This document shows positions 1,824 through 10,234 of a DNA stretch of 10,251 nt, in pieces. The DNA lies in NCBI GenBank assembly GCA_011620045.1, contig WOZY01000174.1, positions 1 through 10,251 on the forward strand, written 5' to 3'. A program made the position numbers and the translations under genes. How positions within the stretch are numbered: the stretch's first letter is position 1; each line of letters starts with the position of its first letter. Source of the stretch: Mesotoga sp. (GTDB taxonomy: Bacteria > Thermotogota > Thermotogae > Petrotogales > Kosmotogaceae). Below the pieces are notes generated by a model, which did no database searches, was not told where the DNA came from, and saw only the letters and a program-made list of their open reading frames with translations.

Positions 1824-2003
1824 ATGGAATCTTTGCAGAGACTACAGTTGACTTCTCTGAAGCATTTATGGTGGTTCGAAAGTTCCGATTTTCCTCATCC
1901 TCATTTACTAGCGAATAGAGATGGTTTTCCGCAACCTATCAAGATCTCCCTTTTCGATGGCAATTCTGATACTACACAAATACCTCTCTGCTTCCTCCAA
2001 TGA
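1824..2003 (+). CDS. Doubtful small ORF (59 codons) overlapping the tyrA tail antisense
   Basis: The ATG at 1824 is preceded by AGAGGT (1813-1818) with a five-base gap, a reasonable Shine-Dalgarno, and lies 31 bases after the GNAT stop. The frame stops at TGA 2001-2003. The first 28 codons lie in the gap between the convergent units (starting MESLQRLQLTSLKHLWWFE), and the rest is antisense to the end of tyrA. It could be a small third gene of the rightward unit, the remnant of a gene truncated where the aromatic operon now sits, or chance. I recognise no family, and the antisense half has no independent sign of coding. Confidence 0.2.
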   Translation: MESLQRLQLTSLKHLWWFESSDFPHPHLLANRDGFPQPIKISLFDGNSDTTQIPLCFLQ

Positions 2004-2675
2004 AGAAGCGATATTTGGACCATTGAATCTAGCCATATCTAGAACCATATCCATGTTCTGTCTTCCAAGTCTAGAGGTTGAATCGTAACCGGGGCCAGAA
2101 TACTTCTCAACATCTTTGCCGAGTTTCAATACGGCCCCAGAAAGAAAATAGACTGCTTGGCTTACTCTGCTCACTATATAGTCGTGTTTTTCCGGAGATA
2201 GAAATTCTGGTATAGAACCGAGGTCAGCGACGATTTCCAGTACAAGATCCACGTCTTGCTTGGTCGCACACTCTCCCGGCCACAACATGAATGTGCGGCC
2301 ATCGAACATGAATTCATTCCAACCCTCCGGACCTACATTCTCATTGCCGGCCATGGGATGACCGCTGACGAATCTTATCTTCCTTCTGTTGGCGATCGTT
2401 TGGAAAGGCTGCATTACACTGGCGACGTCAACTACTGGTCCTCCAATAGAAGCCGAATTAAGTAACTCTGCCTCGGAACTCATGGGAATAGCGAGTACTG
2501 TGAGATCTACACCCTCGCAAAGACCTGAGCAAACCTCAAAATCCACTCCTCTTTTTCTCAGCATATCATTCGTGTCTCTATTCTTGTCAAACACAGACAG
2601 TTCATGTCCAGCTTTCGATAGCCTTAATGCGATTGAGCCTCCAATAGAACCGGCCCCCACTAACTGAATTCTCAT
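1908..2675 (-). CDS. tyrA: Prephenate dehydrogenase
   Basis: Oxidatively decarboxylates prephenate to 4-hydroxyphenylpyruvate using NAD(P)+, committing carbon to tyrosine. The 255-residue protein starts with a Rossmann dinucleotide loop (GAGSIG, 7-12) and has Asp30 at the end of strand 2, which usually favours NAD. VVDVASV (81-87) is the family's D-x-x-S segment, and SGHPMAG (104-110) carries the conserved catalytic His106. The C-terminal half is helical (from about 155), as in TyrA dimerisation domains. There is no ACT or fused chorismate mutase domain, and it is on the short side for the family. The ATG overlaps the aroH stop (ATGA). AAGGAA upstream can pair with the adjacent TTCCTT, so its Shine-Dalgarno may be partly masked unless the upstream gene is translated. 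It is the last gene of the operon. Confidence 0.92.
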   Translation of the reverse strand: MRIQLVGAGSIGGSIALRLSKAGHELSVFDKNRDTNDMLRKRGVDFEVCSGLCEGVDLTVLAIPMSSEAELLNSASIGGPVVDVASVMQPFQTIANRRKIRFVSGHPMAGNENVGPEGWNEFMFDGRTFMLWPGECATKQDVDLVLEIVADLGSIPEFLSPEKHDYIVSRVSQAVYFLSGAVLKLGKDVEKYSGPGYDSTSRLGRQNMDMVLDMARFNGPNIASSLEEAERYLCSIRIAIEKGDLDRLRKTISIR

Positions 2676-3031
2676 ATAAAGGAATCTTCCTTAAGTACTT
2701 GATCGGGTCTAAGATTCTTTGCGCGACGCAAGTACACGAAATTCTTCGTTTTGGATTCGCAGTGAACTAACACTCTGATAATTCCGTTAGTAGATCCGCC
2801 AAAAGAAGCTTCATAGAGACATAACAGCGCGACATCGCTCTGATTAAATGCCTTTCTAAAAGCAGTTGCTGGATTGTAAGATGTTATGTCATTTGTGACG
2901 GTGAATATGACGGAGTGCAGTTCGGTGATCTCATTCCTTCTGAATATCTCCTCCATAAGCTCTATCACGGAGTCTCGTATCTCTTCCGGGCAATCTGCTT
3001 CAATAGATGTTGCTCCCCTTATAGCTTTCAC
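2672..3031 (-). CDS. aroH: Chorismate mutase, AroH type
   Basis: Converts chorismate to prephenate. The 119-residue protein matches the monofunctional trimeric AroH fold known from Bacillus subtilis rather than the helical AroQ-type mutase. Active-site residues are visible: Arg5 (in AIRGAT), Arg59, Glu74, Arg86 (in GIIRVLV), Tyr100 (in FVYLR) and Arg108 (in LRPD). These correspond to B. subtilis Arg7, Arg63, Glu78, Arg90, Tyr108 and Arg116. The start is GTG at 3031, overlapping the aroQ stop as GTGA, with GGGAGG about seven bases upstream. It supplies the substrate of TyrA, whose gene follows it with an ATGA overlap. Confidence 0.92.
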   Translation of the reverse strand: MKAIRGATSIEADCPEEIRDSVIELMEEIFRRNEITELHSVIFTVTNDITSYNPATAFRKAFNQSDVALLCLYEASFGGSTNGIIRVLVHCESKTKNFVYLRRAKNLRPDQVLKEDSFI

Positions 3032-3480
3032 TTTGTCGCCTCCCGATCTGTTAACGAATTAAGATGTGAAACTGCATATTCTATGGCAAGCAAGTACCCC
3101 TGCAGTCCAAGTCCTGCGATTGTTCCGCTGCATACCGGAGAGATCACCGACTTGCTTCTGAACTCTTCTCTAGCGAAGATGTTTGAGATGTGTACTTCGA
3201 TTTTGATCCCCTTAAACAATTCAAGTGCGTCTCTTAGCGAGTAGCTGTAATGAGTGAGTGCACCGGCATTTATGACAACTGCATCATAGTCAATGTTATG
3301 AATCCTGCCAACAAGCTCTCCTTCGTGATTGGACTGGAACAACTCACTTGAGGCCCCGCTTTCGACGCACTTTCTTTCGACGGCTTCACAAAGCTCATTG
3401 TATGTGAAGTCACCATACAGACTCTTTTCCCTCATTCCAAGCATATTCAGGTTAGGCCCGTTCAATATGAGTATTTTCAT
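3028..3480 (-). CDS. aroQ: 3-Dehydroquinate dehydratase, type II
   Basis: Dehydrates 3-dehydroquinate to 3-dehydroshikimate, the third shikimate step. At 150 residues it has the normal length for the small dodecameric type II enzyme, unrelated to type I AroD. Visible motifs are NGPNLNMLG (7-15), the catalytic-loop tyrosine Tyr22 in SLYG, QSNHEGELV (carrying the conserved Glu), VINAGALTHYS (the usual NPGAYTH block with Ala for Pro), EVHISNIFAREEFR with the conserved His, and a GLGLQGY segment near the C-terminus. The ATG overlaps the aroKB stop as ATGA, so translation is probably coupled. Confidence 0.95.
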   Translation of the reverse strand: MKILILNGPNLNMLGMREKSLYGDFTYNELCEAVERKCVESGASSELFQSNHEGELVGRIHNIDYDAVVINAGALTHYSYSLRDALELFKGIKIEVHISNIFAREEFRSKSVISPVCSGTIAGLGLQGYLLAIEYAVSHLNSLTDREATK

Positions 3481-4964
3481 ACGACCACAGCCAGCAAATC
3501 ATCTAGTCTTACCTTTGCAAATTCAAAGGAACCGGGGGTCCTGACAAGGGGTATCTCTATCTCCATGCTCTCCGAGGTCATCGCCTTCTTGTCATTTCTA
3601 AGCAGTCTTAGAGCATCCTCGACAGGTAGCTGCGGGAAATCCAGACCGACGATTTCGGATAGCGTTTCCGATACTTCTCTGTACACTACCTCATCTATAA
3701 GACCTAGATTTGCGAAGTAGCGCATCTCCCTTTCCAGACCCCACGCCACCGCCATGCCGTGCGAGACTCCGGTTAATGGCTCGTAGAGATGTCCCAATGT
3801 GTGGCCAAGATTCAGAATCCTTCTTATTCCTGTTTCACGCGTATCAATCGCCACTATTCTATCCTTCTGCTTTACGGCTTCTTCCAGCATCTCACTCAGC
3901 GCGCCCAGATTCCTATTCTTCAAGTCTCTGCACTGGCTCTTGAAATTCTCATACCATCGGCCTGTGATGAGAAATATCTTGAAGGCCTCTACCAGGCCTT
4001 CTTCAAACCGGCCTTCGTCCATCGAAAGCGTTACGACTGGATCTATGATGGTCTCATAGGGCATATAGAAGTTGCCGACTACATTCTTGCATCCTTTGAA
4101 ATTAAGCCCATTTTTCCCGCCTATTGAAGCGTCTACTTGAGCTAGAAGAGTCGTCGGATATAGGGTTATTGGAACACCCCTCTTAAATGTCGAGGAAGCG
4201 AATCCAACGAGATCCGTTACCGTTCCTCCACCCGCACCGACCACCATGTCGCTTCTCGAAAGTCCCCGATCCATGAGATACTCATAGATTTCAAAGAGTG
4301 TATGAAATCCCTTTGCCTCTTCACCGTCATCTATGGATAGAGCCGAAGAGGGGATCCATTCGGAAAAGATCCTCTGGACTCTTCTTGAGACTACCGTGTT
4401 CGGCATCCTACCTATGGACTTGAACCCACCCGGTGATATTGAGACAGGGTGAGAACTGCTATTAAGCGTTTTGCTTTCACCAGCGGCAATTTTCATAGAT
4501 ATCGCTGCAACGGTCTCCCACTGGGTCTGGCTCGAAGTATCAACGGACGGGAACTGCTCATAGAGCTCCCTTCGTTCCTCCCAAATTCTGAAGATACTCT
4601 CCTTGCCTTCCTTCAGTAGCGGGCGATCCTTCACACTGACCCTTCTGTAGAGATCTGCTGGCGGAAGTCTGAGATAGACGGTATTTTCTCCCTTCAATAT
4701 CTGACGGTTCTCCTTATCAAGTATTAGACCCCCACCCGTCGAAACGACAATCTCGTCGCTGCGGACGAGCTCTTTCAGAAGGTTCTTCTCCAGTCTTCTG
4801 AATTCTTTCTCACCCTCTTTCTCGAAAATCTCACTTATGCTCATCCCCTTAACTCTTTCGATCTCAGAATCCATGTCTATGAATCCTTTATCGAGAACGG
4901 AAGAGAGGATTCTACCTATCGTGCTCTTCCCCGAACCCATCATCCCAATGAGGAACACTCTCAT
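3477..4964 (-). CDS. aroKB: Fused shikimate kinase / 3-dehydroquinate synthase
   Basis: One 495-residue chain carries two non-consecutive shikimate activities. Residues 1 to about 160 are shikimate kinase: Walker A GMMGSGKST (7-15), DMD (30-32, Asp32 for shikimate), FRRLE (Arg56), GGG (77-79) and the lid DRPLL (Arg114). Residues from about 175 are dehydroquinate synthase: GAGGGTVTDLVGF (243-255), PTTLLAQVDASIGGKNG (270-286), KNVVGNFYMP, and likely metal ligands Glu326, His388 (in NLGHTLGH) and His402. The usual HGEAV reads HGMAV here. The same fusion is known from Thermotoga maritima at nearly the same length. The ATG has GGAGG seven bases upstream, which fixes the start even though it lies 53 bases inside aroC. 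Confidence 0.95.
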   Translation of the reverse strand: MRVFLIGMMGSGKSTIGRILSSVLDKGFIDMDSEIERVKGMSISEIFEKEGEKEFRRLEKNLLKELVRSDEIVVSTGGGLILDKENRQILKGENTVYLRLPPADLYRRVSVKDRPLLKEGKESIFRIWEERRELYEQFPSVDTSSQTQWETVAAISMKIAAGESKTLNSSSHPVSISPGGFKSIGRMPNTVVSRRVQRIFSEWIPSSALSIDDGEEAKGFHTLFEIYEYLMDRGLSRSDMVVGAGGGTVTDLVGFASSTFKRGVPITLYPTTLLAQVDASIGGKNGLNFKGCKNVVGNFYMPYETIIDPVVTLSMDEGRFEEGLVEAFKIFLITGRWYENFKSQCRDLKNRNLGALSEMLEEAVKQKDRIVAIDTRETGIRRILNLGHTLGHLYEPLTGVSHGMAVAWGLEREMRYFANLGLIDEVVYREVSETLSEIVGLDFPQLPVEDALRLLRNDKKAMTSESMEIEIPLVRTPGSFEFAKVRLDDLLAVVV

Positions 4965-6039
4965 CCTTCACCCTCCTTTTTATCGAGCAGAAATCACCAT
5001 TTCCAAATCTTTCGAGAATCGCCTCGAGTAACAAGAGCGAGAGCATAGACTCTCCTACGACTGCAGCCGCCGGAACCGCCGTAGTATCGGAACGAACGTA
5101 AGGAGTCCTTGTCTCATTTAAGTCGCTCAGATCGACGGAAGAGATTCCCCTCCTCAAGGAAGGAATCGGCTTCACGCTTGCCTCAACAACGATTCGTTCG
5201 CCGTTCGATATCCCACCCTCGATACCGCCAGCGTTATTTGTCTTCCTGAAAACTAGCCCGTCTTCAATGTAGAGCTTATCGTGGTATGCGCCTCCTCGAA
5301 GCCTCACATCGGGATTTCCAATGAAGACGCCCTTAACTGAGGGAATCGCCATGAAGTGCTTCCCGATTCTCGAATCGAGTCTTTCAAAGAGACTGCCATA
5401 TCCGCCGGTCCCCGCCGGTATTCCATCGGCGATTACAACGAATCTTCCCCCAAGGGTTTCCCCAAACTCCCTTGCAGTATCGATCTCCTTCAACATCTCT
5501 CGGTAGGCGATTTCATCGTGGCAAAAAAGCGAAGATCCACGATCCCTCGAAACCCATTCTCTCCATGAGGGGCGTTCACAGCTGACGTTTCCGATCGCTA
5601 TGACTGAACTGCACACGGTAATTCCAAGCTCTTGAAGAATCTGGGATGAGACTGAACCGATAGCCATAAGTGCTGCAGTCCATCTCGCACTGCTTCGCTC
5701 TGCATAGACCGCCAGATCATTCAGTTTGTATCTCGTCCACGCAGCATAATCGGAATGTCCGGGCCTTGGGATGCTTCTCACGCTCTTCTCGGCACTGGAA
5801 ATCTTATTCTCTATCTCAATCAGAAGAGGGGCACCAGTCGTAAGGTCCTTCCACAGACCCGACTTCACTATTGACCTGTCCTGCTCGCCCTTCATCCTCT
5901 CTCCCCTGCCATAGCTCTTCTGTCTTCGCTGTAACTGTTTATCTATCTCTTCGATTGAAAGAGAAACACCAGAGGGCAACTCCTCGATAAGCCCGAAGAC
6001 GCCGCTGCCATGAGAGTCTCCGGCTACGGTAAACTTCAT
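4912..6039 (-). CDS. aroC: Chorismate synthase
   Basis: Converts 5-enolpyruvylshikimate 3-phosphate to chorismate using reduced FMN, the last step of the common pathway. The start is ATG 6039, overlapping the aroE stop as ATGA. The 375-residue protein begins MKFTVAGDSHG, as in Thermotoga, with conserved His10, then SYGRGERM, RPGHSDY (His95), AERSSAR (113-119) and RSDTTAVPAAAVVGESM near the C-terminus. The frame is open further upstream, but that region is aroE coding. Two oddities stand out. The second family signature, usually SARETxxRV, reads SARWTAALM. The C-terminus runs 53 bases into aroKB in another frame, giving a tail (about KDESVPHWDDGFGEEHDR) beyond the usual end. Function still seems likely because the rest of the core is intact. 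Confidence 0.93.
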   Translation of the reverse strand: MKFTVAGDSHGSGVFGLIEELPSGVSLSIEEIDKQLQRRQKSYGRGERMKGEQDRSIVKSGLWKDLTTGAPLLIEIENKISSAEKSVRSIPRPGHSDYAAWTRYKLNDLAVYAERSSARWTAALMAIGSVSSQILQELGITVCSSVIAIGNVSCERPSWREWVSRDRGSSLFCHDEIAYREMLKEIDTAREFGETLGGRFVVIADGIPAGTGGYGSLFERLDSRIGKHFMAIPSVKGVFIGNPDVRLRGGAYHDKLYIEDGLVFRKTNNAGGIEGGISNGERIVVEASVKPIPSLRRGISSVDLSDLNETRTPYVRSDTTAVPAAAVVGESMLSLLLLEAILERFGNGDFCSIKRRVKDESVPHWDDGFGEEHDR

Positions 6040-6818
6040 TGCACCACTTCCCAGAACGCCTTTTCGAAGACCTCGCCTGAAGGCAGACCCCAAATTCTGA
6101 GATTCTCGAGAGCCTGGTGAAGCAGCATCTGTCTTCCGTCAAGAACGGTTTCTACTCCACAGCTGTAAGAAAGCTCGATCAAGGGCGTCTTCCAGTAAAT
6201 CAGATCGTAAACGAGGCTCTTACCGTCCAGTTCTTTATAGGTGATCCCCGTTTCCTCTCCATTCATTCCAAGAGAGGAAGCATTAACTATACTCATGCTC
6301 CTCGAAGCAACCTCTCTGATTGACTCAAACGGAAAGACACTCACTTCAAACCGCCCTGGTATCTCGAACTCCTCTTTGATCTTCTCCGACCTGGAAAGCG
6401 TTCTGTTCACGAGTTCTATCCTCTTCACGCCCGCTTTCCTCAAGAAAAAAATCACTGCCCTCGCAGCACCTCCGGCTCCAATAACCATTACAGGCTCCTT
6501 TATCGATCTCTCGAGCAAAGGCTTACCAAAACCTACCCAGTCCGTGTTATACCCCATTCCCTCAAAGACGCAATTTATTGCCGAGAGCGGAGGTTCAACC
6601 TGGCTGACCACGTAAGCGATAACCTTCTCCTTGAAAGGGATGGTAACGTTGAACCCATCGAAATGCTGAACAACTGAAGCTATCTTTTCTGCGAATTCTT
6701 CTGGAAGAATGTCAACCGCTTCGTAAGTTGCATCGATGCTCATTCTTTCGAAAAACCGTCCGTAAATGGCCGGCGATAGACTGTGGGAAACTGGATGTCC
6801 AATTATGCATAACCTCAC
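6036..6818 (-). CDS. aroE: Shikimate dehydrogenase
   Basis: Reduces 3-dehydroshikimate to shikimate with NADPH. The 260-residue protein shows the shikimate-binding SHSLSP (11-16), FNVTIPFKE (56-64, catalytic Lys63), GYNTDWVGF (89-97, catalytic Asp93), the nucleotide loop GAGGAARA (114-121), VNRT (137-140, typical of NADP binding) and a QALENLRIWG block near the C-terminus. I chose GTG 6818, which overlaps the aroA stop (GTGA) and has GGAGG seven bases upstream. The resulting start MRLCIIGHPV matches the family's usual beginning. A TTG at 6824 is in frame but lies one base from the Shine-Dalgarno. Confidence 0.94.
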   Translation of the reverse strand: MRLCIIGHPVSHSLSPAIYGRFFERMSIDATYEAVDILPEEFAEKIASVVQHFDGFNVTIPFKEKVIAYVVSQVEPPLSAINCVFEGMGYNTDWVGFGKPLLERSIKEPVMVIGAGGAARAVIFFLRKAGVKRIELVNRTLSRSEKIKEEFEIPGRFEVSVFPFESIREVASRSMSIVNASSLGMNGEETGITYKELDGKSLVYDLIYWKTPLIELSYSCGVETVLDGRQMLLHQALENLRIWGLPSGEVFEKAFWEVVQ

Positions 6819-8074
6819 TGACAAACCTCCTCGAGTGTTTCGAAGAACCCCGGAAAGGAAACATCGACTGCTTTCGAGTCGCCTACCTCAACTCCTTCAC
6901 TGCTAAGCAGTCCGGCTATTGAGAAAAGCATCGCAATCCTGTGATCACCATAAGAGTCGACCTTGCCTCCCGTTATTCTTTGAGGGCCTTCAACGCTAAA
7001 ACCATCTTCATATTCAAGGATCTCTACGCCAATTCTTTTGAAGTTCTGAACGGTAACGGATATCCTGTCCGACTCTTTCTTTCTCAACTCCTTGGCCCCT
7101 CTGACAGTCGTTGTGCCTTCCGCAAAAGCTCCAGCAAGCGCAATCAGCGGAAGCTCATCTATCATTGAAGGAATCAAATCACTTCCAACATCCACTCCTT
7201 TAAGGCGGGAAGTCTTGGCCACGATTGTGCCAACCGGTTCTGGCAAGCTCTCTTCAATCTCAAGCTCGATGTCTGCACCCATACTCATGAGAAGTCTTAG
7301 GAATCCGGTCCTCCCTTGATTCAGTCCGACATTTCGAATCGTCACCTTGCCATTTTCATGAAGAATCGCCAGAACTATCAGAAAGGCGGCCGAAGAGATG
7401 TCCCCGGGTATCGAAAACCGGACAGGTAGAAGTTCGCTCTTTTCTACCTCAACTCTCTTTTCAATCACACTAATTTTGGCACCCATTGAGCGGAGGAGCC
7501 TCTCTGTGTGGTCCCTGCTGCAGTGTGGCTCAGTAACGGCCGTAGTACCTTCCGCTTGAATCCCAGCCAGCAGAATCGCACTCTTAACCTGAGCGCTGGC
7601 AACTGAGAGAGAATGTTCACATCCCCTTAGCTCTCCTCCAGATATGCACATTGGAAGAAGTGAATCCTGGCGAGCCGATATGCTCGCCCCCATCTCTCTT
7701 AAAGGGGTAACGACTCTCTTCATGGGCCTGCCTGACAGAGAATCATCTCCAAAGAGAACGTGAAAACCTCTCTTTCCCGAAAGAACTCCGGCCATCAGTC
7801 TAGCAGTAGTCCCGGAATTCCCACAGTCAAGAGGCCTAGACGATTCTCTCCACGACGCCGAAGATATTTCCATTCTGTCGAAACCGCCTCTGAAGTCCCC
7901 TCCAAGTTCGCAGATCATTCTAAACGTCCTCAAAGTATCTTCGCTTTCAAGCAGGTTGTGGACAATACTAACGCCGCTACTCATAGAGCACATCATTAGA
8001 GCTCTGTGAGAAATCGATTTATCAGGAGGAACAACAATTTCTCCGACAACTTTCTTTGAAGGCAGCAATCTCAT
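6815..8074 (-). CDS. aroA: 3-Phosphoshikimate 1-carboxyvinyltransferase (EPSP synthase)
   Basis: Transfers the enolpyruvyl group of PEP to shikimate 3-phosphate. The 419-residue protein has PPDKSISHRA (16-25, Lys19, Ser20 and Arg24 for substrate), CGNSGTTARLMAG (84-96, the PEP-binding block), DSLSGRPMKR (111-120), SAQVKSA (160-166), DELPLI (306-311), RKKESDRI (331-338), GDHRIAM (376-382) and a final DVSFPGFFETL. The GNSGTT wording is closer to the Gram-positive-type enzymes than to the GNAGTAMR of E. coli. The start is ATG 8074 with GGGAGG about five bases upstream. An in-frame TTG at 8095 overlapping the aroF stop lacks a suitably placed Shine-Dalgarno. The gap to aroF is 17 bases. Confidence 0.95.
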   Translation of the reverse strand: MRLLPSKKVVGEIVVPPDKSISHRALMMCSMSSGVSIVHNLLESEDTLRTFRMICELGGDFRGGFDRMEISSASWRESSRPLDCGNSGTTARLMAGVLSGKRGFHVLFGDDSLSGRPMKRVVTPLREMGASISARQDSLLPMCISGGELRGCEHSLSVASAQVKSAILLAGIQAEGTTAVTEPHCSRDHTERLLRSMGAKISVIEKRVEVEKSELLPVRFSIPGDISSAAFLIVLAILHENGKVTIRNVGLNQGRTGFLRLLMSMGADIELEIEESLPEPVGTIVAKTSRLKGVDVGSDLIPSMIDELPLIALAGAFAEGTTTVRGAKELRKKESDRISVTVQNFKRIGVEILEYEDGFSVEGPQRITGGKVDSYGDHRIAMLFSIAGLLSSEGVEVGDSKAVDVSFPGFFETLEEVCQ

Positions 8075-8091
8075 CTTTTCCTCCCAACCTA

Positions 8092-9108
8092 TCAAGTGAG
8101 CGAAAGCTCGGCGGCACTGGCCAGTTCTTCGAGACTATTCATAAGCTTTTCAAACTCGCCGAAACTAAGACTTTGTTTGCTGTCGGAAAGAGCCTTCTCC
8201 GGCCTTGGATGAACCTCAACTTCGATACCATTGGCTCCGACCGCCAAAGCTGCTCTGGAAAGCGGTATTATCAAGTCTCTTCTCCCGGAGGCGTGGCTCG
8301 GATCAACAATGATCGGAAGAGGCGATTGCAGCTTTATTAGAGGAACTGCAGAGATGTCCAGCGTGTTCCTCGTTGCCGTCTCGAAGGTCCTGATTCCCCT
8401 TTCACAAAGTATTATCGACATATTTCCCCTCGATGCGATGTACTCTGCGGAAAGAAGAAGTTCTTCGACCGTATTCATGAAACCCTTCTTCAAAAGAATA
8501 GGTTTGCTCTTTTCGGCCACCTTCTGTATAAGCTGAAAGTTCTGCGAGTTTCTCGCGCCAATTTGCAGTATGTCGCTCATTTCACAGACAGCTTCAAGCG
8601 TCCCTTCACCGGTTACCTCGGTCACTGTCTTGAGACCATAATGATCTGCGGCTTCTTTCAAGTATCTCAAGCCAATCTCTCCGAGTCCCTGAAAAGAGTA
8701 CGGGGAAGTCCTCGGCTTGAAGGCTCCCCCTCTGATTACCCTGACCCCCATTTCCGAAAGAAAGGCGGCGCTCTCTTCTATCATAGGTCGATCTTCAATC
8801 GCGCAAGGACCGGCCATGACTATGAACTTGCCTTCTCCTACCGACAAATCCCCGATCTCCACTGAGATATCTTTACTGTGAAACTCTCTCGATACGAGCT
8901 TGAAAGGCTTGAGAACACGCACAACCTGCTCAACACATTCAAGAGCCTCAAAGCGTTCCACCGACATATACCTGTCGTCTCCAATCACACCTATTACTAC
9001 TCTTTCCATCCCTCTGGAAACATGACAGCTCAGCTTCAGACTCTCTGAAAGAGACTCGACTTGCTTAATTTCCTCTTCACCGGTACCTCTCTTAAGAACG
9101 ACTACCAT
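8092..9108 (-). CDS. aroF: DAHP synthase with N-terminal ferredoxin-like regulatory domain
   Basis: Condenses PEP and erythrose 4-phosphate to 3-deoxy-D-arabino-heptulosonate 7-phosphate, the entry step. It has 338 residues, the same length I recall for the T. maritima enzyme. Residues 1 to about 70 form the ferredoxin-like domain that in T. maritima confers feedback inhibition by Tyr and Phe, and the rest is the TIM barrel. Visible blocks are AGPCAIE (99-105), RGGAFKPRTSPYSFQGLG (126-143), LLKKGFMNT, CERGIRTFETATRNT and DPSHASGRRD (269-278). The metal ligands Cys102, His272, Glu298 and Asp309 are all at the expected positions. I chose ATG 9108, behind GGGGTGGTGA and matching the family N-terminus. 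The open frame extends upstream to GTG 9216, but that stretch is the attenuator. Expression is probably controlled by the terminator just upstream. Confidence 0.95.
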   Translation of the reverse strand: MVVVLKRGTGEEEIKQVESLSESLKLSCHVSRGMERVVIGVIGDDRYMSVERFEALECVEQVVRVLKPFKLVSREFHSKDISVEIGDLSVGEGKFIVMAGPCAIEDRPMIEESAAFLSEMGVRVIRGGAFKPRTSPYSFQGLGEIGLRYLKEAADHYGLKTVTEVTGEGTLEAVCEMSDILQIGARNSQNFQLIQKVAEKSKPILLKKGFMNTVEELLLSAEYIASRGNMSIILCERGIRTFETATRNTLDISAVPLIKLQSPLPIIVDPSHASGRRDLIIPLSRAALAVGANGIEVEVHPRPEKALSDSKQSLSFGEFEKLMNSLEELASAAELSLT

Positions 9109-9130: not shown

Positions 9131-9165
9131 GAAAAAGAAAAGGGTCTCCGGATTGGAGACCCTTT
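9131..9165 (-). terminator. Intrinsic terminator of the aro leader (attenuator)
   Basis: Reading the minus strand, AAAGGGTCTCC (9165-9155) pairs perfectly with GGAGACCCTTT (9149-9139) around a five-base loop, and the run TTTTCTTTTT follows directly (9141-9132). The stem is 11 bp with six G-C pairs in its core. It sits 23 bases before the aroF start and downstream of the operon promoter, where a constitutive terminator would make no sense. It is therefore best read as the conditional stop of an attenuator. Confidence 0.88.
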
Positions 9166-9216
9166 CGTATCTTTCATCCGGAGTAAATGCAAGAAGCACT
9201 TACCCGGAGTTATCAC

Positions 9217-9288
9217 TCACAAGCAAATGCTTCTGTTGTTATAATAATAGGAATATGCATTTATCCAGGAAAAACTGAAGTCTATCAT
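9217..9288 (-). CDS. Aromatic-rich leader peptide of the aro operon
   Basis: A 23-codon ORF begins ATG 9288 and ends TGA 9219-9217. GGGGAG (9302-9297) lies eight bases upstream, and a promoter start is expected near 9310. The peptide begins MIDFSFSWINAYSYYY and continues NNRSICL. It has two Phe, one Trp and four Tyr (three consecutive TAT codons, 9249-9241) among 23 residues, and all aromatic codons lie before the first pairing segment of the attenuator. Its role would be to report charging of tRNA-Phe, tRNA-Trp and tRNA-Tyr by ribosome position, as in the trp and phe leader peptides of enteric bacteria. It is too short to be a conventional protein, and the peptide product is probably without function itself. 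Confidence 0.82.
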   Translation of the reverse strand: MIDFSFSWINAYSYYYNNRSICL

Positions 9289-9316
9289 TTACTCAACTCC
9301 CCGCTGGTATGAAAGG

Positions 9317-9346
9317 ATTCTACACTTTTGTCGTCTACCATGTCAA
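9317..9346 (-). promoter_or_regulatory. Sigma-70-type promoter of the aro operon
   Basis: Reading the minus strand, a perfect TTGACA (9346-9341) is followed after 18 bases by TAGAAT (9322-9317), a 5/6 match to the -10 consensus. Upstream is an A/T-rich stretch (CATAATTAAATC) that could act as an UP element. Transcription would begin near 9310, about 20 bases before the leader peptide ATG and just upstream of its Shine-Dalgarno. A weaker TATTAT at 9250-9245 further down lies inside the leader ORF and is less likely to be used. Confidence 0.75.
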
Positions 9347-9502: not shown

Positions 9503-10234
9503 TTACCCTGTAAATAAATATTCCTGATCTACAATGTACTCTCTAAAACCCAGAGCGCGAGAAACCTTTAACGATGCATAGTTCAAGACGTTATGTCTGT
9601 ACTGAATAAGCTTCTTGTTGATGACAGCCCACTCGCTCGCTCTAGAACCAAGAGCCTTACCCAGACCGAGCTCTCTGAAATCAGGTATTGTAATTATGCC
9701 GATATCTGCAATTTTATCCCACTCGATTATGCTGGAGACTGCAACGATTTCGTCTTCGTACAGCGCTCCGAAAACGGCAATGTGATCAAGTTCTACAAAC
9801 CCCTCGGCCAGATCCTCCCTGGTGCACTGGTTTCTAAAACGATAGAAGGCCGTTCTGTCGCCTTGATTGAGTCTTCTCACCGTGAACTCGGCAGGCGGGT
9901 AGAAAGGAACGTAATTTGAAGGATTAAGATACTTGATGGAAGTCTTCTTCAAAAGAAGAAATGAGTCTCGAATCAAATCGGCCAGATAGTCACCGGGATT
10001 TTCATCCTGAGTTTCAATAGACTTGAAAACATCTTCCAGCAAGGGATCGTATAAGATGACGGTCTGCCTTTCAAAACTCAGTTGCTCGATCCCGCCCTTC
10101 GCTCTCTTACTCTCATCGGGAAAAAAGAAATAGGTTCCAAGGAGAAATCTATCAAATGAAAAACCCAATCGCTTTGACCACGCTTCAAGTATTGCCCTTT
10201 TCAGATCTTCCTCTCTCAATTTCCTTTCCTCCAT
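9503..10234 (-). CDS. GNAT-family N-acetyltransferase with an unassigned N-terminal region
   Basis: Encodes at least 243 residues. The C-terminal half (about 117-240) is a GNAT domain: FTVRRLNQGDRTAFYRFRNQ, the strand pair FGALYEDEIVAVSSI, ADIGIITIPDFRELGLGKAL with a canonical acetyl-CoA loop R187-x-x-G190-x-G192-x-A194, and the closing NYASLKVSRALGFREY. Residues 1 to about 115 (EEDLKRAILEAWSKRLGF…) are a charged, partly helical region I cannot assign. The small-molecule or protein substrate is unknown. ATG 10234 lies 17 bases from the window edge, has no clear Shine-Dalgarno before it, and the frame stays open to the edge, so the gene may start outside. It shares the aro operon's strand but is separated from the promoter by about 155 bases. 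Confidence 0.75.
   Translation of the reverse strand: MEERKLREEDLKRAILEAWSKRLGFSFDRFLLGTYFFFPDESKRAKGGIEQLSFERQTVILYDPLLEDVFKSIETQDENPGDYLADLIRDSFLLLKKTSIKYLNPSNYVPFYPPAEFTVRRLNQGDRTAFYRFRNQCTREDLAEGFVELDHIAVFGALYEDEIVAVSSIIEWDKIADIGIITIPDFRELGLGKALGSRASEWAVINKKLIQYRHNVLNYASLKVSRALGFREYIVDQEYLFTG

Follow-up and report, generated by a model that had tools for sequence, protein, structure and literature searches.

A putative ribosome-mediated attenuator with an aromatic leader peptide upstream of the aro operon of Mesotoga, and related leaders in other Thermotogota

The attenuators of the trp, pheA and his operons of E. coli combine a leader peptide carrying regulatory codons with mutually exclusive hairpins, and in each of these operons the regulatory codons match one amino acid. 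An aroR leader of aroF in Corynebacterium glutamicum was reportedly described by Neshat and coworkers in 2014. Passages of two papers place this Phe-Tyr-Phe leader in front of the DAHP synthase operon and state that stalling raises transcription (PMC11802643; PMC4046766). In Acholeplasma, according to a passage of a further paper, attenuation has been proposed for the uORFC-13-1 motif before aroF (PMC8632094), and it is considered in part of another study that the attenuator motifs covered there may have arisen in gamma-proteobacteria (PMC3766115). Thermotogae were among the groups for which leader genes were counted in PMC4833913, in the passages concerned, and the lists of that study could contain the ORFs described here. 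The relevant passages of PMC4833913, PMC2965389, PMC3766115 and PMC3636130 describe no aromatic leader of Thermotogota, and those of four surveys of leaders, attenuators or structured RNAs are without amino acid attenuators of this phylum. A literature search combining Mesotoga with leader peptides gave no result. In the papers and passages covered by the literature search, no description of such a leader for the aro operon of Thermotogae was recognized, in agreement with the initial annotation.

The window analyzed here is a stretch of 10,251 nucleotides from Mesotoga sp. (contig WOZY01000174.1), and all features given below lie on its minus strand. The initial annotation had proposed a 23-codon ORF with many aromatic codons, preceded by a consensus-like promoter and a Shine-Dalgarno (SD) sequence and followed by a complete shikimate operon, and each of these elements is indeed present. 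The ORF (9217..9288) starts with an ATG at 9288, comprises 23 codons and ends with a TGA at 9219-9217. The encoded peptide, MIDFSFSWINAYSYYYNNRSICL, contains Phe at positions 4 and 6, Trp at position 8 and Tyr at positions 12, 14, 15 and 16. The SD sequence GGGGAG is located 8 bases 5' of the ATG, and a sigma-70-like promoter (TTGACA-18-TAGAAT, 9317..9346) with 11 of 12 consensus matches is found further upstream, with 28 bases between the -10 element and the ATG. This promoter is present in all seven aligned upstream sequences, the window included, and its -35 element reads TTGACT in L007 and L008. The first gene of the operon encodes DAHP synthase (8092..9108) and starts 108 bases behind the stop codon of the leader. 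It is followed by the genes for AroA, AroE, AroC, an AroK-AroB fusion, AroQ (type II DHQase), an AroH-type chorismate mutase and prephenate dehydrogenase (1908..8095). The products of all eight genes score above their Pfam cut-offs, with AroE and prephenate dehydrogenase below the NCBIfam equivalog cut-offs. The operon is preceded on its own strand by a gene for a GNAT-like acetyltransferase with a weak Pfam match (9503-10234). From the sequence data presented here, we consider it very probable (about 0.86) that the region between this promoter and aroF is a ribosome-mediated transcription attenuator of the whole aro operon.

The initial annotation had also named loss of the leader in close relatives as a finding that would speak against attenuation. 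No such loss was observed in a comparison of 10 genomes of the same genus: nine match the leader stretch, and the leader peptide is encoded in all nine; in the tenth, G002, the contig begins inside the DAHP synthase gene and the upstream region is absent. The leader of G007 was assembled over two contigs with a 60-base overlap, and the contig of G006 stops before the gene. The peptide variants run from MIDFSFSWINAYSYYYNNRSICL to MSIFDFSWINANSYYYIMSICS and MLSQRFSWINANRYYYFNMSICS, and Phe 6, Trp 8 and three consecutive Tyr residues are invariant. Among seven aligned leaders, the two gaps inside the ORF measure 6 and 3 bases, both multiples of three, and single-base gaps are confined to the sequence outside the ORF. 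Furthermore, no base differs among the nine genomes in the 18-base stretch TTTTCCTGGATAAATGCA around the Trp codon, and because this identity extends to the third codon positions, it suggests a role of the RNA in addition to its coding role. The C-terminal residues SIC[LS] are kept in the genus as well. This conservation could be taken as a sign that the peptide itself functions as a small protein, and leader peptides can act in trans according to a passage of PMC7298713, but we regard this as very unlikely: the C-terminal codons coincide with helix B (see below), so that the conservation of these residues is explained by the helix, and between families the peptide sequence differs and the aromatic clusters persist.

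The leader RNA can adopt alternative structures built from four segments and a terminator. Segment A, CUGGAUAAAUGC (9257..9268), holds the Trp codon and can potentially pair with segment D. Segment B, AGAAGCAUUUGCUUG (9220..9234), consists of leader codons 19-23 and pairs with segment C, CUCCGGGUAAGUGCUUCU (9192..9209), which pairs with either B or D. Segment D, GCAUUUACUCCGGAU (9176..9190), has three possible partners, namely C, A or, as an antiterminator, the terminator. The predicted intrinsic terminator hairpin E:F, AAAGGGUCUCC-AAUCC-GGAGACCCUUU (9139..9165), has a stem of 11 bp and is followed by a U-rich tract, the whole terminator-like site spanning 9166..9138. Its loop and 3' arm contain AUCCGGAG (9146..9153), the 8-base antiterminator partner of D. 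Energies calculated with ViennaRNA are -25.0 kcal/mol for B:C, -18.7 kcal/mol for C:D, -18.2 kcal/mol for the terminator and -16.0 kcal/mol for D:terminator with inner pairs, the bare 8-bp helix of the latter reaching -11.2 kcal/mol. An alignment of seven genus leaders (G000, G009, G001, G004, G003, G008 and G007; the near-identical G005 and the partial G006 were excluded) revealed complete pairing of A:D (84/84 cells), C:D (91/91) and E:F (77/77) and nearly complete pairing of B:C (126/131) and D:terminator (52/53). Two-sided changes within the genus occur only in B:C (columns 48/75) and in the terminator stem E:F (columns 111/135); in A:D no base varies among the seven leaders, and this helix is hence without covariation support. 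In G007 the terminator loop is reversed, and the UCCGGA needed by D is kept, shifted to the 5' side.

The leader of the window is highly structured (z -6.0), a property that would also be expected of another RNA sensor, such as a T-box or an aptamer, with the ORF arising by chance. This explanation is extremely unlikely, as the leader matches no Rfam family at the gathering threshold and comes near no cut-off when the threshold is relaxed, and the aromatic cluster persists in each family with a recognized leader although the remaining peptide differs. A T-box or another known riboswitch was considered separately and rejected: no T-box match was obtained from Rfam, and the relaxed matches belong to sRNAs, miRNAs, antisense RNAs and one cis-element, all far below their cut-offs.

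For the attenuator, we infer the following order of events. Transcription would start near 9310 and a ribosome would begin to translate the leader. If Phe-tRNA or Tyr-tRNA, possibly also Trp-tRNA, is scarce, the ribosome would stall on the aromatic codons and leave B exposed. B could then pair with C, which would bar D from C, and D together with the emerging terminator arm would form an antiterminator that permits read-through. With an ample supply of these amino acids, the ribosome would reach the stop codon and cover B, C would capture D, and the terminator would form.

The relation between ribosome position and helix choice was analyzed by masked folding, with 14 bases upstream and 12 bases downstream of the first base of the P-site codon masked and the 3' arm of the terminator only partly grown. 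The partial 3' arms are our own choice, and the equilibrium test at full length is uninformative: at full length the terminator forms here to 100% at every ribosome position, and the E. coli trp leader, treated by the same procedure, also forms it to 100% at full length under any mask. As the terminator always wins at full length in the computation, switching can only be kinetic. For the window leader, folded from the likely start and with the arm extended to GGAGAC, the antiterminator forms to 99-100% for every A-site position from codon 4 to codon 18; it then declines to 97% at codon 19, 50% at codon 20 and 27% at codon 21, and drops to 2% at codon 22 and 1% at the stop codon. With the same arm and start, the antiterminator at the stop codon is at most 2% in eight of eight leaders. 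At codons 6-16 and with this arm, it amounts to 100% in L001-L004 and to 44-100% in L007; the weak leaders are L005 (16-100%, codons 6-14), L008 (3-94%) and G007 (4-57%, codons 6-17). If the arm is grown only to GGAG, 61-67% antiterminator are still present at the stop codon in L001-L004, among them the leader of the window, and the remaining four leaders do not exceed 4%. About 8 extra bases at the 5' end led to a sharper drop directly past the last Tyr codon in L001, and L004 and L005 discriminate poorly under this condition, so the exact percentages, which shift with the 5' end, call for caution. Under the two widest masks, the state at the stop codon fails, with 48% and 93% antiterminator in L001 and 81% and 98% in L007.

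Folding without a ribosome (arm to GGAGAC) resulted in 99, 99, 100, 100 and 85% antiterminator for L001-L005, 34% for L007, 27% for L008 and 1% for G007. Read-through is therefore predicted for the ribosome-free leader of the window (99%), yet a longer fold shows the terminator. Superattenuation, in which the absence of a ribosome would lead to termination through A:D and B:C, was rejected as a general feature, as it is seen in the long fold and is not robust across leaders. Taken together, the positions of the aromatic codons agree in general with the computed switch: with the arm to GGAGAC, codon placement fits most genus leaders, is weak in L005, L008 and G007, and is sensitive to the 5' end and the mask width. 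The proposal of ribosome-mediated attenuation in the initial annotation is well supported by the conservation of the ORF, by alternative helices with compensatory changes and by the match between codons and helices in most leaders of the genus.

The initial annotation had furthermore claimed that the operon is tuned to all three aromatic tRNAs. This is the weakest part of the claim and is only partly supported, as no gene of the Trp pathway was found in the genus. The N-terminal domain of TrpE (PF04715) and the chorismate-binding domain (PF00425) were each found in 0/10 genus genomes, and TrpA (PF00290) exceeded its cut-off in 0/10, with one sub-threshold match in G006. The controls of these searches were positive in 14/14 genomes each. 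Completeness reaches 90% or more and contamination stays at 5% or less in seven of the ten genus genomes; the window's own genome is 79% complete. Prephenate dehydratase is present in 7/10 genus genomes and was not found in this 79%-complete genome. Because TrpE, the chorismate-binding domain and TrpA were not found, the shikimate pathway appears to end at Phe and Tyr in this genus. As the pathway apparently cannot feed Trp and the Trp codon lies in the D-pairing segment A, Phe and Tyr are the likely signals, and a response to Trp is possible, though not needed. In its strict form, this reading says that the attenuator senses Phe and Tyr only and that the UGG codon is kept as part of segment A, which narrows the main explanation and does not oppose it. 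We rate its chances as slightly better than even. It is in line with the missing Trp-pathway domains, with the invariance of the 18 bases around the Trp codon down to the third positions in 9/9 genomes, and with the sister genus g5 (G013), where the leader MKKNYGFFAYFYINSTYR without Trp precedes chorismate mutase and prephenate dehydrogenase. On the other hand, A:D shows no two-sided change, stalling at Trp 8 could still occur in a Trp auxotroph, and masked folds with the ribosome at Trp 8 give the antiterminator in most leaders (exceptions with the likely start: L005 and G007).

The relationship between Trp codon and Trp pathway was also compared across the phylum in 28 leader rows, with one row each for the genera g1, g9 and g35. 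Trp codon and TrpA are concordant in 23 rows (16 with both, 7 with neither). The discordant rows are three with a Trp codon and no TrpA, representing the window's genus and the g6 copies of G030 and G035, and two with TrpA and no Trp codon (G049 and G050). Fisher's exact test gave p 0.003, a value uncorrected for relatedness and based on partly incomplete genomes. In G057, TrpA is present and no match to TrpE was found. In genus g16 the leader reads NFWYY with TrpA and NYGYY where TrpA was not found; likewise, g27 leaders read NYWWFYYY with TrpA versus EYYYYY without. The codon content of the leaders thus tends to follow the biosynthetic ability inferred from the genomes. The Trp codon of the window is an exception, which could be explained by its placement in segment A or by sensing of Trp that has been taken up.

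A search of 103 Thermotogota genomes identified DAHP synthase in 58. We collected 58 upstream regions from 54 of these genomes and omitted G002, G007, G041 and G043, where a contig boundary lies at or close to the start of the gene. An ORF preceded by an SD sequence and containing at least four F/W/Y in six residues is present in 37/58 regions, compared to 233/5800 Markov shuffles and 2/58 regions on the opposite strand. If no SD sequence is required, these numbers change to 43/58, 1001/5800 and 13/58, respectively. L005, L007 and L008 of the window's genus are not captured by the criterion with SD sequence, and the leaders of L055 and L056 lie farther upstream. Family-specific patterns, which were written after the leaders had been seen, identify a leader in 43/58 regions and none in 15, the latter including L055, L056, eight of the ten g6 regions, and regions of g10, g11, g12 and family f8. 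Within the sequence analyzed, 37 of the 43 leaders are followed by a terminator-like hairpin, compared to 17 of 1290 shuffled segments; in L052, one of the six misses, a terminator appears when more sequence is included.

These terminators also bear on control at the level of translation, in which the leader or the hairpins would couple to or hide the aroF start without termination. The leader stop and the aroF start lie 108 bases apart on one presumed transcript, and reinitiation has been proposed for short leaders in a passage of PMC4833913. Nevertheless, this reading is quite unlikely, considering the strong predicted terminator with its U tract between leader and aroF, the excess of terminators behind leaders of the phylum and the position of the aroF SD sequence, which lies outside every helix described (A:D, B:C, C:D, E:F and D:terminator).

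The RNA itself extends beyond the genus. Families f4, f7, f10 and f11 share the architecture of the window's family, and in these four further families the homologous RNA precedes either the DAHP synthase gene or a chorismate mutase gene ahead of it. The latter arrangement is found in G042 (f7) and G100 (f11), where the leader is followed by an AroH-type chorismate mutase (PF07736) and then by DAHP synthase. In f10, B forms the end of the leader ...NYYYFWFNRGTCP, and C and D correspond to GCUCCGGGCAGGUGCC and CUGCCCGGAGC, respectively; because the terminator contains GCUCCGGGCAG, a partial copy of C, D pairs with it perfectly over 11 bases. For a comparison across families, 11 sequences representing five families were selected. 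Of the B:C cells, 128/132 are paired, with two-sided changes at 7/12 positions. C:D is paired in 151/165 cells with two-sided changes at 5/15 positions, a result favoured by the manual delimitation of C and D and by the one-base bulge allowed in f1. B:C and the terminator together are paired in 97.6% of the cells and contain 9 two-sided pairs compared to a shuffle mean of 3.3 (0/500 as high), and further pair types in these helices are not above shuffles (130/500 as high). Sliding the partners by 1-3 columns reduced pairing to 35-55%.

An antiterminator that shares sequence with the terminator is found in 11/11 sequences, where D pairs with the arm or the loop over 8-12 bp, counted with G-U pairs allowed. 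To control for chance, the two pieces were shuffled 2000 times for each of the 11 sequences. A helix equal in length to the 8-base D:terminator helix of the window occurred in 60/2000 shuffles. In 9/11 sequences a helix as long was obtained in 5-60 of 2000 shuffles (at most 3%), and the helix is within chance in G007 (335/2000) and G045 (730/2000).

Differently built aromatic leaders are present in four further families. The leaders of g7, g8 and g9 (L012-L015, L017, L019, L022, L023 and L025) have a common tail of approximately KTPILV.LFCR. In the g9 copies, the tail codons look complementary by eye to the 5' arm of the terminator (ACACCCATTT with AAATGGGTGT), and because of this complementarity the antiterminator of g9 may lie inside the leader ORF. 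The simple masked fold fails to explain the leaders with this shared tail. Masked folding throughout the phylum covered 37 loci with leader and terminator, and a difference in terminator probability of 0.2 was used as cut. In 18/37 loci the probability with the ribosome at the stop codon exceeds that on the aromatic cluster by more than 0.2, in 4/37 it falls below it by more than 0.2, i.e., in the opposite direction, and 15 loci lie in between. With the longer arm, 14 loci behave as predicted and 2 in the opposite direction. At the level of genus means, 5 of 13 are positive with the shorter arm (g1, g35, g38, g25 and g20) and two are negative (g6 and g27); with the longer arm g38 goes down to 0.04 and g27 up to 0.17. 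With the exception of g25 (f3), the positive genera are all members of the group with the homologous RNA. The leaders of f2, f5 and f9 are mostly neutral and some are opposite under the masked fold, and most do not fit the simple model. Several of their ORFs extend into the hairpins and need a different model.

A covariance model, R1, was built from the 11 cross-family sequences. It matches 44/103 genomes at E 0.01 or better, the weak matches being unreliable. Outside the training genomes, it detected the leader of G013 mentioned above (L108, G013:C17; E 9e-10), followed by a chorismate mutase gene identified by eye and a prephenate dehydrogenase gene (PF02153); no DAHP synthase was found in a search of this genome. 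Weak matches (E 1e-5 to 8e-4) comprise trp leaders 5' of TrpE in g9 and g7 and transporter leaders in f4. The former are Trp-rich leaders (...NWWWHLG and ...RTWWWHL; L110-L112 and L115) with a terminator just 5' of TrpE. The latter were found in G046 and G039 (L116 and L117), where aromatic leaders are located ahead of the gene for an ABC substrate-binding protein (PF04392) and a genome search gave no DAHP synthase. The window's genus has a second aromatic leader before a PF04392 gene as well, in 9/9 full-length genes including that of the window genome; in the tenth genome, G006, no match to this transporter was found. These leaders are of the type ...YAYWFRRNVLS..., as exemplified by MTRAAYVSYVYAYWFRRNVLSSDSSSVCLS (L125 = G000:C132; also L118-L124 and L126), and a terminator-like hairpin was seen by eye behind the leader in the two regions L121 and L125. 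We consider it likely that in this genus synthesis and presumed uptake are each controlled by an aromatic leader of their own. In front of PheA, no SD-preceded ORF with at least three F/W/Y was found in 6/6 genus upstream regions. The prephenate dehydratase of G004 (L086 and L087; G004:C1:36295-36829) appears in two overlapping pieces with an internal TGA, which points either to a disrupted or frame-shifted gene or to an error in the assembly.

It seems reasonably likely to us that these leaders belong to an ancient aromatic attenuation regulon of Thermotogota, in which one homologous RNA composed of B, C, D and a terminator already governed the DAHP synthase operon in an ancestor shared by several families, and the codons of each leader were adapted to the aromatic amino acids that its host makes. 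In this reading, D would be the switch strand with competing partners and the terminator a copy of C in some families, Trp codons would come and go with the Trp pathway, and the same principle would guard aromatic uptake or branch genes where the pathway has been wholly or partly lost. Ribosome-sensing leaders at the first step of the shikimate pathway in a phylum distant from the gamma-proteobacteria would open both the age and the convergence of attenuation to direct tests. Leaders with two or three kinds of regulatory codons could be used to examine how several tRNA signals are integrated by a single RNA, the variation of the Trp codon is a natural experiment on a leader following the loss of a pathway, and hyperthermophilic members would show coupling at high temperature.

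The mechanism proposed here is known, and the place and the architecture of the element were not found described. Like aroR of C. glutamicum, the leader has aromatic codons in a peptide upstream of a DAHP synthase operon; aroR belongs to another phylum, encodes another peptide and is reported to answer to Phe and not to Tyr. Features in common with uORFC-13-1 (PMC8632094) are a uORF, one or more Phe codons and a terminator, all located ahead of aroF; that motif is restricted to Phe and has been reported solely from Acholeplasma and environmental sequences. The trp leaders of g9 and g7 (...NWWWHLG* and ...RTWWWHL*) stem from the same phylum and likewise consist of a leader followed by a terminator, but their Trp codons form a cluster, the Trp branch is controlled, and they match R1 weakly. 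Finally, in the masked fold the leader resembles that of E. coli trp in being only kinetically switchable. In contrast to the E. coli attenuators, codons for Phe, Tyr and Trp occur together in one leader, and the shared partner is D, a distinct segment situated between C and the terminator.
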